In this document: one piece after another, positions 1,333 to 60,647 of the stretch
Numbering within the stretch: position 1 is the first letter of the stretch
How the letters are laid out: the number at the start of each line of letters is the position of its first letter
Assembly: GCF_000143685.1 (NCBI RefSeq)
Contig: NC_014328.1
Location: 868,001-932,000, forward strand
DNA from: Clostridium ljungdahlii DSM 13528
GTDB lineage: Bacteria > Bacillota > Clostridia > Clostridiales > Clostridiaceae
Length of the DNA: 64,000 bases
Reading direction: 5' to 3'
The notes under the pieces: model-generated
Databases searched by the model: none
The model's input: only the letters and a program-made list of their open reading frames with translations
Told to the model about the DNA's origin: nothing
Position numbers and translations under genes: made by a program

Positions 1333-2097
1333 TTAAATTATAAGTAATGTGGCGGCTGTAATAGGAACTAAAAGCATTGCAACTTTTAATATTGGTATAG
1401 GTACTCGTTTTGTAAATTTAGCACCTATATAGGAACCTGTTATTGTACCTACAACTACTTCAATAAGAAGATGTATATCTAAATATCCTAAGTGATAATA
1501 TCCTGCTCCTCCAGCTAAAGCAATTGGTATAATTACCATCATAGTAGTCCCTACAGATTGACGTACTGACATACCTAGAATAAACATCAATCCGATTTGA
1601 ATAAAACAAGCAGATCCTATGCCAAATAAACCTGAAATGGTACCTGTAACAAGTCCTATTCCACAGGCACGTATCCAAAAACTCATGCCATTAGGTAAAG
1701 AATTTTTATCCTGAGAAGAATGTCTTTTTTCTATAATAAACATACGAATCCATAAAATTAAGGCTGATAAATATAACATCCCTGAAGTCATCCATTTTAG
1801 TTCACTGGCAGGTATAATTGCAGAGAAATTAGAGCTAGTCCAAGATCCAATAGCTCCGAAAATTCCTACGGCAAGTCCCACTTTTAGTACAGCATCGCCT
1901 TCTCTATAGTGACTAAAAGCTCCAGATATGGATGAAAAGATCATTGCAGCTAAAGCAGTTCCAAGGGATACATGAATGGTAAAACCAAAAATTACAGTCA
2001 AAATGGATATTATAAATCCAGATCCACCTGCCCCTACAAATCCAAGTGCAATTCCAACTATGAACATTACAAGTATTATCTGTACTGCCAACATCAT
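1333..2097 (-). CDS. TSUP-family (TauE/SafE) membrane permease
   Basis: The protein is about 254 residues with seven to eight hydrophobic segments and glycine-rich repeats (GFVGAGGSGF near the N-terminus, GLFGIGSACF near the middle). The duplicated G-x-G-G/S motif is typical of the TauE/SafE/YfcA permease family, which is linked to export of sulfite, sulfonates or other small organic anions. Substrate cannot be read from sequence. Start is uncertain: a TTG at 2109 is also in frame, but the GAAGGA sequence lies just before tandem ATGs at 2097 and 2094. A second, only distantly similar TSUP permease lies at 49721-50482. Confidence 0.75.
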   Translation of the reverse strand: MMLAVQIILVMFIVGIALGFVGAGGSGFIISILTVIFGFTIHVSLGTALAAMIFSSISGAFSHYREGDAVLKVGLAVGIFGAIGSWTSSNFSAIIPASELKWMTSGMLYLSALILWIRMFIIEKRHSSQDKNSLPNGMSFWIRACGIGLVTGTISGLFGIGSACFIQIGLMFILGMSVRQSVGTTMMVIIPIALAGGAGYYHLGYLDIHLLIEVVVGTITGSYIGAKFTKRVPIPILKVAMLLVPITAATLLII

Positions 2098-18211: not shown

Positions 18212-19360
18212 ATGGCACAGAAGGACTATTATGAAGTACTTGGACTTGAAAAAGGTGCAAGTGATGGAGATATAAAAAAAGCATTTAGAAAATTAGCATT
18301 GAAATACCACCCAGATAGGAACCCCAATGATAAAAAAGCTGAAGAAAAATTTAAGGAAATAAATGAAGCCTATCAAGTACTCTCAGATCCTCAGAAAAAG
18401 GCACAATATGATCAGTTTGGAACAACTGACTTCAATGGCGGCGGTGATGCAGGCTTTGGAGGCTTTGGAGGTTTTGATTTTTCAGACATGGGAGGCTTTG
18501 GAGATATATTCGATTCTTTCTTTGGTGGTGGAGGCGGATTTGGCTCTAGCAGCAGAAGAAGAAATGCACCACAAAAAGGAGCAGATCTTGAATATACTCT
18601 AAATTTAACTTTTGAAGAAGCTGTTTTTGGAGTGGAAAAGGAAATAAATATAGCTAGAAATGAAAAATGTGAGGCTTGTGGTGGAACAGGAGCTAAAAAA
18701 GGAACACATCCCCATACTTGTGATAAATGCGGTGGAACAGGACAGATGAGAACTCAGAGGAATACGCCTCTTGGAAGCTTTGTAAGTATGAGCACTTGTG
18801 ATAAATGTGGTGGAAGAGGAACTATAATAAAAGATCCTTGTCCAGAATGCAGAGGAAAAGGTGCAGTAAGAAAACATAGAAAGATAAAAGTGAAGGTTCC
18901 AGCAGGAGTAGATAATGGAAATATAATTCCATTAAGGGGACAAGGAGAAAGTGGCAAGAACGGTGGACAGTCAGGAGATCTTTATGTAAATATAAGGGTT
19001 TCACCTCATTCTAAGTTTAAGAGAAAGGGATTTGATATATATACAGATACACATATAAGCTTTGGTAAAGCTTCCCTTGGAACTAGTTTAAAAGTTGCAA
19101 CTATAGATGGGGATGTAAAGTATGATGTACCATCAGGAACTCAATCAGGAACTGTGTTTAGACTTAAAGGCAAGGGTGTCCCTAGGGTTAATGGTCATGG
19201 TAGAGGTGACCAATATGTAAATGTAATTGTTGATGTACCTAAGGATTTAAATGAAAAGCAGAGAGAAGCCATTATAATGCTTATGGAGGCAAGTGGAGAA
19301 GTACCTGCAGGAGAAAGTGGAAAAAAATCTATCTTTGATAAACTTAAACATCACCACTAA
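18212..19360 (+). CDS. dnaJ: Chaperone DnaJ (Hsp40)
   Basis: A 382-residue type I DnaJ: J domain with the HPD motif (YHPDRNP), Gly/Phe-rich linker (about 70-115), four zinc-binding CxxCxGxG repeats ([32 protein letters not shown]), then the substrate-binding C-terminal domains, ending in Lys-His-His-His. It stimulates DnaK ATPase and delivers substrates. SD AGGTGGTGA. Last canonical gene of the CIRCE operon, separated from dnaK by structured repeats. Confidence 0.97.
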
Positions 19361-19395
19361 TATAAATAAAATCACTAAGTACATGGAATTATAGA

Positions 19396-19650
19396 GTTTC
19401 TAAGCAAAAAATAAACTTATACTTCGGATATTTTTTACAACCTTCAGCTCGTTAAATATTTTGATAAGGCTAAGAAAAAATTTTTGAAAAATATTTAGAA
19501 TTTTTGAAAACTCGTGCCTCAAACAATTCAAAAATTCTAAGTTTTTCAAAAATTTTTCCCTAAGCCTTATATACAAAATATTTAAAAGAGCTTCATTATT
19601 GTAAAAATATGCCTGCGTATAAGTTGATTTTTAGGGTAGAAAACCTATAG
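19396..19650 (+). repeat. Long-hairpin dispersed repeat, copy 1 (dnaJ-prmA gap)
   Basis: About 255 bases that fold back over almost their whole length. The outer arms (from TTCTAAGCAAAAAATAAAC and its complement near 19615-19648) pair through CTTATAC/GTATAAG, the middle through ATAAGGCTAAG/CTAAGCCTTAT, and the apical stem through TAGAATTTTTGAA/TTCAAAAATTCTA (about 19494-19540), leaving an 18-base loop around CTCGTGCCTCAAACAA. A second copy at 60079-60330 is alike, with paired changes in the arms and the same loop. The rest of the gap to prmA (19651-19880) holds further inverted repeats and ends with GTATAAGTCAACTTT, also present after copy 2. It could be a structured RNA in the prmA leader or a palindromic miniature mobile element. 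Confidence 0.8.
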
Positions 19651-19915
19651 ATCGTAAAGTCTAAAGTTAAGTCTATAATTACTCAAAATTGTTAATTATA
19701 AATCTTAGCTGGATTTATAACTTTAGCATTTAAATCGAACTGGCAGTTTGGATAAGTTTAATTGTAGAGTTAATTATTTATATATAGAATTTCCAATTGA
19801 AGTTTAAATTTATTAAAGTTCTTTATGTGATGAAATTTGTCATTACATAATTTGGTATAAGTCAACTTTCAATCTAGAAAATCTATAGCATAAAATTTTG
19901 TATAGGAGGAAACCT

Positions 19916-47506: not shown

Positions 47507-47850
47507 GTAAGTAAGTCAGACAATCGCTGCTGTAGAAATACAGGAGAGGAAAGTCCGGGCTTCATAGGGCAGGGTGCTGGGTAACACCCAGTCAGGGTGA
47601 CCTGAAGGAAAGTGCAACAGAAATATACCGCCGAAATTTATTTCGGTAAGGTTGGAAAGGCGAGGTAAGAGCTCACCAGCGCATTGGTGACTTTGCGGCT
47701 ATGTAAACCCCATCTGAAGCAAGATCGAATAGGAAAGCATATAAAAGCGGCCCGCTTTGCTTTCGGGTAGTATCGCTTGAGCCCACTGGTAACAATGGGC
47801 CTAGATAGATGATTGTCTAATACAGAACTCGGCTTATAGATTTGCTTACC
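47507..47850 (+). ncRNA. rnpB: RNase P RNA (bacterial type A)
   Basis: The transcript contains GAGGAAAGTCCGGGC, AGGGCAGGGTGCTGGGTAAC, GGAAAGTGCAACAGAAA and CCCCATCTGAAGCAAGA, all conserved RNase P RNA core segments. The 5' GTAAGTAAGTC (47507-47517) pairs fully with the 3' GATTTGCTTAC (47839-47849) as helix P1. The order of the core segments fits type A. It processes the 5' ends of tRNAs with protein RnpA. Own promoter and terminator are visible. Confidence 0.95.
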
Positions 47851-47860
47851 CACTAGAAAA

Positions 47861-51744: not shown

Positions 51745-51920
51745 AAGATAGTGGGAGAGTTATGGCTTTTGCCATTCACCGAAGAAGTAAATCTTTCAGG
51801 TACCTATTTAATTATAGAGATGACCGCTATTGGATGAATCCTTGGAGAGACTCTTATTGAGCACCGAAGGAGAAAGTCGCATGGCGAAACTCTCAGGTAA
51901 AAGGACAGGGAAAAGGTAAC
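51745..51920 (+). promoter_or_regulatory. Tandem glycine riboswitch
   Basis: Two aptamers in tandem. The first (about 51749-51805) has GGGAGAGTTATGGC, GCCATTCACCGAAGAAGTAAA and TCTTTCAGGTA; the second (about 51843-51916) has GGAGAGACTC, GAGCACCGAAGGAGAAAGTC, GCGAAACTCTCAGG and AAAAGGACAG. These are the conserved cores of the cooperative glycine riboswitch. No clear terminator follows; GGGAA after the aptamer can pair with TTCCC about 65 bases downstream. It should control the genes below, a truncated glycine symporter and a CycA-like permease. Confidence 0.92.
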
Positions 51921-59308: not shown

Positions 59309-60079
59309 ATGAATCCAGTAGCATTTTCAATTAGTGGCTTTCAAATAAGATGGTATGGTATAATGATAGCTTCAGGAGTTATGGCAGCACTTTTTTTAGC
59401 TAAATTAAATTGTAAAAACAAAAACTACAATTTTGATAATATAGTAGATACTTTTTTAATATCTTTTCCCTTTGCTATAATAGGAGCTAGAGCCTACTAT
59501 GTTATTTTTCAATTTCAAGATTATAAGGATAATATAATAGATGTGTTCAATATAAGGCAGGGAGGCCTTGCTATTCACGGAGGACTTATATTTGGGCTTA
59601 CAGCTGCGTATATATATACCAGACATAAAAAAATAGATTTTATAAAATTAGCTGATTGTGTAGCACCTTCTATAATACTTGCTCAGGCAATAGGAAGGTG
59701 GGGAAACTTTTTTAACGGAGAGGCTCATGGTGGATCTGTAAGTTATCAATTTATAAGTAAATTTCCGTTGTTTATACAAAAGGGAATGTTTATAGATGGA
59801 ACTTATTATCACCCTACATTTTTGTATGAATCTCTGTGGAATTTAACTGTGTGTATAATTCTTGTATATATTTTGAGAAGAAAACATAATAGAGGTTCTG
59901 TAATAGCAGCATACATAGGATTGTATTCATTAGGGAGGTTTTTTATAGAAGGACTTAGAACTGACAGTTTAATGCTTGGAAGTATAAGAGTAGCACAGTT
60001 AGTTAGTCTTGCAGGAGTTGTATTTAGCATAGCATTTTTCATATATTTAAAGCGCAAGAAAAATATAAACTCATTATAG
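59309..60079 (+). CDS. lgt: Prolipoprotein diacylglyceryl transferase
   Basis: A 256-residue seven-helix protein: [24 protein letters not shown] (GARAYYVIF), [13 protein letters not shown] and the Lgt signature [15 protein letters not shown], plus [11 protein letters not shown]. It attaches diacylglycerol to the lipobox Cys of prelipoproteins in the membrane. The stop TAG overlaps the first bases of a dispersed repeat. Confidence 0.95.
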
Positions 60080-60330
60080 ATATTCTAAACAAAAAATAAG
60101 ATTATACTCCGAATATTCTTTACACCATTCAGCTCGTTAAATATTTTGATAAGTCTAAGTAAAAAATTTAAAAAATATAAGAACTTTTGAAAACTCGTAC
60201 CTCAGACAATTCAAAAGTTCTAAATTTTTATATAAATTTTTCACTAAGACTTATGTACAAAATATTTAAATGTGCTTCATTATTGTAAAAAATATATCTG
60301 CGTATAATCTTATTTTTAAGTTAGAAAGCA
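60079..60330 (+). repeat. Long-hairpin dispersed repeat, copy 2
   Basis: Aligns over its length with copy 1 (19396-19650). Stems: ATTATAC/GTATAAT (copy 1 CTTATAC/GTATAAG), ATAAGTCTAAG/CTAAGACTTAT (copy 1 ATAAGGC.../...GCCTTAT) and the apical GAACTTTTGAA/TTCAAAAGTTC (copy 1 GAATTTTTGAA/TTCAAAAATTC), so changes in one arm are matched in the other. The loop CTCGTACCTCAGACAA differs from copy 1 by two transitions. The distal GTATAAGTCAACTTT follows at 60411-60425 as in copy 1. Confidence 0.8.
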
Positions 60331-60647
60331 TTTATAATATAGTTAACAAATGTTTCAAGCCTAAAATATGATTTATATAGAGTTTTCAATTTTGTCATCA
60401 TATTTCTCAAGTATAAGTCAACTTTTATTCATAAATTCTATTTTAGATGTTAAATATTTACTGTATTATAAAGATGTAGTCTAACTAAAAAATAAGATTA
60501 TGTGTAGGTACATTTTTAACTTCCTTTTACTTGCATTATATGGTTTACTTTATAATTTATCCAATATATAACTTTTATGTAAAGTTTCATATGTTTTGTA
60601 CGATGAAAGTAATATTATGCTTTTTTATTATTGGGAGGTTTTTTATT

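Follow-up and report, generated by a model that had tools for sequence, protein, structure and literature searches.

In the 64,000-nucleotide window analysed here (the whole stretch of DNA studied, positions 868001-932000 of the single-contig, 4,630,065-base genome of Clostridium ljungdahlii DSM 13528, G000), two long hairpins lie behind dnaJ and lgt, and their stems differ by changes that are matched on both arms. The question raised by this locus is whether such paired changes around a preserved loop mark a structured RNA or a palindromic mobile element that has to extrude as a hairpin, the two readings between which the original prediction had left the choice. Our data favor the latter and weaken the former, and suggest that the hairpins are members of a large, apparently undescribed clostridial family of mobile palindromic DNA elements.

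Anatomy and stem covariation

The features of the two loci are as follows.

18212..19360, + strand: dnaJ, co-oriented with copy 1, its stop codon ending 29 nt upstream
19390..19650, + strand: copy 1, a type-A palindromic element, with ends TATAGAGTTTCTAA / TTAGAAA..CCTATAG modulo changes
19470..19474, + strand: outer CTAAG motif in the 5' arm of copy 1, opposite 19560-19564, with an A-A mismatch
19510..19525, + strand: conserved apex loop of copy 1, ACTCGTGCCTCAAACA
19537..19541, + strand: inner CTAAG motif in the 3' arm of copy 1, its 5'-arm partner altered to TTTAG here
19560..19564, + strand: outer CTAAG motif in the 3' arm of copy 1
19646..19787, no strand assigned: third repeat unit of about 140 nt with TATAG-like ends, between the A and B elements
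19788..19890, - strand: truncated inverted type-B element (arms only, apex lost), boundaries by eye
59309..60079, + strand: lgt, co-oriented with copy 2
60075..60330, + strand: copy 2, a type-A palindromic element
60193..60208, + strand: conserved apex loop of copy 2, ACTCGTACCTCAGACA
60366..60430, no strand assigned: type-B-like arm remnant carrying the motif GTATAAGTCAACTTT, boundaries by eye

Copy 1 is located between dnaJ and prmA, upstream of prmA, and copy 2 begins within the lgt stop codon, as its terminal TATAG includes that TAG. The hairpin architecture claimed for both segments was borne out, with copy 2 matching copy 1 at 85% over 253 nt (E 2e-74) and copy 1 matching its own reverse complement over 260 nt (E 2.8e-32); the shared loop and all three matched stem changes claimed between the copies are likewise present in the sequence. 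The further motif noted downstream, GTATAAGTCAACTTT, is indeed found in both (19855-19869 and 60411-60425) and, judging from intact copies, represents the outer arm of a type-B sister element that is truncated and lies outside the hairpin. A close relative of the third repeat unit occurs at G000 767600+1673..1800 and is missing from the orthologous locus of C. ragsdalei (L169). At the curated gathering score, Rfam 15 has no family at the element; within the window it recognizes only a bacterial RNase P RNA (47508-47852) and a glycine riboswitch (51832-51918), both ordinary, and at relaxed E-values the loci and copy 1 yielded only sub-threshold matches, those at the hairpin being of microRNA type.

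The element is non-coding and palindromic, measures approximately 180-290 nt and occurs in two types, A and B, that have loop and plan in common and differ in their stems. By eye, both types form a long imperfect stem in which CTAAG-like motifs oppose each other with an A-A mismatch, and the apex reads AACTC-(middle)-TCARACA, with a middle that differs between genera and often pairs with itself; the loop and the stem mismatches are kept between genera. As a separate observation, another short palindromic element, possibly an IS200/IS605-type remnant, is inserted within family hairpins at G000 641602, L147, L185 and L192, lying near the apex at the first three.

In two alignments, A1 and A2 (30 and 37 copies), two-sided changes occur in 17 of 29 and 11 of 42 pairs, numbers that none of 500 shuffles reached. 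Paired cells amount to 94.5% in A1 and 97.2% in A2 (again 0/500 shuffles) and fall to 50-61% when the partner is slid by one column; as the structures were derived from these very alignments, they are favored on this measure. For further pair types in A1, 5 of 500 shuffles reached the observed number. The covariation is thus real.

A family of elements at gene 3' ends

Searching G000 with copy 1 returned at least 40 primary matches of 81-100% identity, in addition to weaker and palindromic ones, and the loop pattern with up to 2 mismatches matched 75 times vs. once for the reversed control pattern. A covariance model built from 30 copies, applied to clostridial genomes as the original prediction had proposed, found copies at no fewer than 103 places in G000, at least 120 in C. 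ragsdalei P11 (G004) and at least 123 in C. ljungdahlii ERI-2 (G005), and had no matches in 10 other genomes of the genus. With stricter filters, 18 of 206 genomes in the bacterial family matched, representing 7 of 46 genera, and three of them had a single match each; in a class-wide sample only 2 of 391 genomes matched, both from the same bacterial family. Within genus g48, the model matched at 57, 134 and 104 places in G191, G192 and G193, with G190 not being among the 18 matching genomes, and at 11 places in G205 of another genus. The richest species therefore carry some 100 or more copies per genome, most of them behind a gene in one orientation, and these copy-rich species include gas-fermenting clostridia. 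A literature search, with most subscription papers outside its scope, found no description of the family.

Carriage by phages or plasmids was considered and rejected, as copy 1 had no blastn match in either collection. Viral contigs gave 15 matches to the loop pattern. Among the matches listed from named genomes, those in unrelated phyla were taken as chance, and the match in a Clostridia MAG (L141) has no such hairpin. The idea of an element-encoded protein was also dropped, given that, at four loci, the translations of ORFs lying next to elements or between them resemble host genes by eye.

That the element moves is suggested by its near-identical copies behind unrelated genes and by its patchy distribution, both in keeping with the mobile reading. 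In genome G019, four copies that are 97-99.6% identical over the hairpin lie behind genes without mutual blastp relation, homology starting 7-35 nt past the stop codons, and in three of the four the homology extends further, into a longer ORF-poor stretch. In G193, the left flanks are unrelated among copies that share a nearly identical core. Also in G019, two unrelated genes are followed by an island of ORF-poor repeats that spans at least 1.65 kb and contains several hairpins (L109 1365-3013 and L125 1365-3007, 97% identical); parts of it recur at many more places.

The position of the copies relative to genes is strikingly one-sided. We scored a copy when the stop of a co-oriented ORF of 80 codons or more fell within 35 nt of the expected left edge. 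This was the case for 181 of 263 copies; the mirror position gave 11 of 263, and random points in the same loci gave 396 of 7860 (5%). The left-edge figure is somewhat favored by the design of the test, since the expected distances were fixed per group after earlier lists had been seen and an offset of 5 or 25 nt was applied to the window on the right, but the contrast between left and right is large nonetheless (left only 172, right only 2). The test was passed by 57 of 71 copies in C. ljungdahlii, 23 of 31 in C. ragsdalei, 22 of 31 in ERI-2, 17 of 32 in C. thailandense with C. magnum, 10 of 15 in g8, 4 of 8 in other g4 and 48 of 75 in g48, where the stop-to-loop distance is exactly 72 in 12 of the 48, set by the element's own TAA. 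It was failed by 82 of the 263, and in G000 15 of 75 copies are without such a gene. In G000, 37 copies have a gene as well as a recognizable terminal motif; the motif includes the stop in 6 of these and follows it in 31. When the upstream genes of the copies were compared, four pairs involving G000 appeared orthologous, two of them with C. thailandense (identities of 79% and 68%) and two with G019 (88% and 56%), in addition to weaker family-level matches; by a rough estimate, four shared upstream gene families compare with fewer than one expected. Such recurrence at shared gene ends across distant species is equally compatible with site preference, with old age and with a function.

Comparison with element-free gene ends shows that the element occupies a position where relatives often have an intrinsic terminator. 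The dnaJ-prmA gap folds to -25 kcal/mol or lower, by way of a clear hairpin, in 6 of 10 element-free members of the genus (G003, G006, G008, G009, G010 and G011), and has no such hairpin in the other four. A ThiF-like gene ends in a terminator-type hairpin in G190 and has the element at that place in G193. In ERI-2, the gene corresponding to the one that ends at G000 1648424 is followed by two terminator-type hairpins with about 2 kb of other DNA between them. In a small comparison that covered part of ERI-2 and the window, 0 of 24 element genes had a conventional terminator on either side of the element vs. 75 of 443 other gene ends (p 0.02; 27 of 443 in a stretch further on), and a simple terminator scan found none in either window gap, behind dnaJ or behind lgt. 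Two single loci may be recorded here: the ThiF-like gene of G192 (L424) carries a different, perfect hairpin with 26-nt arms directly behind its stop codon, and the ERI-2 stretch with its two terminator-type hairpins, described above, lies at G005 C1 34685-36856, where G000 has a type-A element.

Inversion, mismatches and probable arm copying

We made 47 comparisons of the same gene end between genomes with flanks 92-99% identical, one site being able to count against two relatives; the type was exchanged between A and B in 24, the outcome was of another kind in 5, and the type was kept with a core identity of at least 0.85 in 18. An initial interpretation, in which A and B hairpins substitute for one another at a given site, gave way to inversion for paired loci. 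The analysis covered 15 convergent gene pairs with an element on both genes in G000 and 18 in relatives, allowing 9 comparisons at 6 distinct G000 loci. In 6 of the 9, representing 5 of the 6 loci, the entire two-element segment is inverted between species while its flanks stay the same, as expected of an invertible DNA segment, with identities of 0.62-0.92 in the reversed vs. 0.46-0.66 in the forward direction; the remaining three are not inverted. Four junction sets were inspected; in two of them, L048/L115 and L060/L202, same-gene flanks are kept through TATAGAGTTTCTA or TTCTA and the type changes beyond, and the other two are less exact or without a clear joint. At the clearest joint, the matching terminal repeat is only about 12 bp. 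Neither this inversion nor the placement at stop codons had been foreseen by the original prediction.

A structured RNA read from the gene strand should favor G-U over A-C in its stem. Among 286 copies, isolated gene-strand stem mismatches were G-T in 171 cases and A-C in 257 (p 4e-5), which weakens the structured-RNA reading; the retention of pairing through G-U on the transcribed strand that would typify a functional 3' UTR RNA is not seen. By group, the G-T/A-C counts were 44/39 in C. ljungdahlii, 20/24 in C. ragsdalei, 21/21 in ERI-2, 14/43 in C. thailandense with C. magnum, 59/115 in g48, 9/11 in g8 and 4/4 in other g4, with none in g52, so the A-C excess is confined to two groups and the others are even; an earlier count in C. 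ljungdahlii alone (68 G-T, 57 A-C) had given no strand preference. Of the two strands, the gene strand is the lower-folding one in just 45 of 286 copies. The fate of resident copies points the same way. In 16 orthologous same-type comparisons, we counted 54 single changes (17 G-T, 20 A-C and 17 other) and 3 double changes (2 still paired) vs. 0.6 expected, with 95.8% identity in the element and 95.1% in the flanks. As resident copies thus change mostly without compensation and at the rate of their flanks, they are not visibly kept as RNA, and the slight excess of double changes fits arm copying or weak selection. Sense-strand RNA is accordingly disfavored by both mismatch type and decay.

How covariation could arise otherwise is suggested by the element ends, where the outermost bases are mirrored in the far arm with a mean outward match of 3.10 nt vs. 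0.74 in the null (62 copies; null sd 0.16, maximum of 2000 shuffles 1.30), including the last codons of the host gene in several cases. From this mirroring we infer that one arm has been copied from the other. Since arm copying can itself create covariation, the covariation is weakened as proof of RNA function; arm copying would at the same time be expected to wipe out the mismatches and the loop that are conserved, and something must therefore keep both.

Explanations and known systems

We consider it probable that these hairpins form a family of mobile palindromic DNA elements that sit at gene 3' ends in one orientation, at terminator positions, and are moved and inverted by a recombinase. 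The element may be tolerated as it brings stop codons and a long hairpin able to end transcription, a putative terminator role suggested by its position. A recombinase recognizing the extruded DNA hairpin, perhaps reading the strand complementary to the gene, would move the element and invert two-copy segments, with recombination proposed to occur at the element ends, and arm complementarity may be renewed in part by copying one arm from the other, as the mirrored host-gene bases suggest. We surmise, as a tentative possibility only, that a clostridial system recognizing the hairpin by its apex and mismatched stem inserts at terminator hairpins behind stops and flips two-element segments, thereby continually exchanging gene 3' ends genome-wide.

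These explanations have to be weighed against three others. The elements could be plain MITEs spread by an insertion-sequence transposase, their placement reflecting loss elsewhere and the inversions generic recombination between inverted repeats. Short, non-coding, A+T-rich, with terminal inverted repeats, no ORF and many copies, they have the general traits of MITEs, and pneumococcal repeats are similarly enriched between convergent genes in the passages of PMC3049150 drawn on here. Loss elsewhere, however, leaves the single orientation unexplained, the apex is conserved over several genera, and the terminal repeat matching at the clearest inversion joint is very short. The original prediction had held that whole-copy duplicates with target-site duplications and no covariation would indicate a plain MITE; in 62 g48 copies, the direct target-site duplication was 1.05 nt vs. 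a null of 0.79 (sd 0.16), not clearly above chance, and covariation is present. We regard the plain MITE as unlikely.

A cis-acting structured RNA of mRNA 3' ends, serving stability, processing or protein binding for many genes, would account for the strong covariation, the loop and mismatches conserved across genera, the co-orientation with the gene and the presence of the element at some of the same 3' ends in distant species. We nevertheless deem it quite improbable in view of the mismatch balance, the uncompensated decay of resident copies and the capacity of arm copying to yield covariation without RNA selection, to which is added the complete absence of the element from closely related species of the genus. 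Finally, an imperfect hairpin lying directly behind the stop, with the gene strand only seldom the lower-folding one, recalls the integron attC site, which is used as a folded bottom strand (PMC3053210, in the part drawn on here), or a REP sequence moved by its associated Y1 transposase. The enzyme searches behind these comparisons covered Y1 transposases and integron integrases. The integron integrase (TIGR02249) was over cut-off in 0 of 26 genomes, the copies are dispersed over the chromosome beside ordinary genes rather than arrayed as gene-plus-attC cassettes, and Y1_Tnp (PF01797) had no match in copy-rich G000, G019, G015 and G192, with up to 18 in copy-free genomes; generic tyrosine recombinases gave sub-threshold matches in all 26 genomes. 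For the classic families, this reading is contradicted, and we give it very little credence overall.

Returning to mobile palindromic DNA as the preferred reading, what is new here is the one-orientation placement at stop codons, the inverted two-element segments, the evidence from mismatches and decay, and the copies behind unrelated genes. Should the element terminate transcription, the job of the terminator at those genes would have passed to a mobile element; should the segments invert within a culture, the ends of convergent genes would constitute a new kind of variable region. More generally, a long palindrome can show strong stem covariation without being a functional RNA, and mismatch type together with the fate of resident copies can tell the two cases apart.

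Among known systems, BOX, RUP and SPRITE of Streptococcus pneumoniae are, in the sections of PMC3049150 used here, comparable high-copy, ORF-poor and foldable repeats enriched between convergent genes, SPRITE being terminator-like; going by that description, the clostridial element is set apart by its location at the stop codon in one orientation, an apex conserved over several genera and the inversion of two-element segments. The bcr1-bcr18 repeats of the Bacillus cereus group resemble it as interspersed intergenic repeats, some MITE-like, often in transcribed UTRs and some proposed as RNAs; they belong to another host group, and the portion of PMC3446304 consulted mentions neither stop-codon placement nor inversion. 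The integron attC site is likewise an imperfect DNA hairpin behind a gene, with unpaired bases on one side and a preference for the complementary strand (as far as described in the same part of PMC3053210), unlike which the clostridial element comes without an integrase over cut-off or arrays and has a much longer stem and a conserved apex. REP/RAYT systems share high-copy palindromes outside genes, but the clostridial hairpin is much longer and the Y1 (HUH) transposase is missing from several copy-rich genomes. In the cwpV switch of C. difficile, a DNA segment flips between short inverted repeats; the segments described here, inverted between species, resemble it but lie between convergent 3' ends, are made up of two palindromic elements and occur at several loci.
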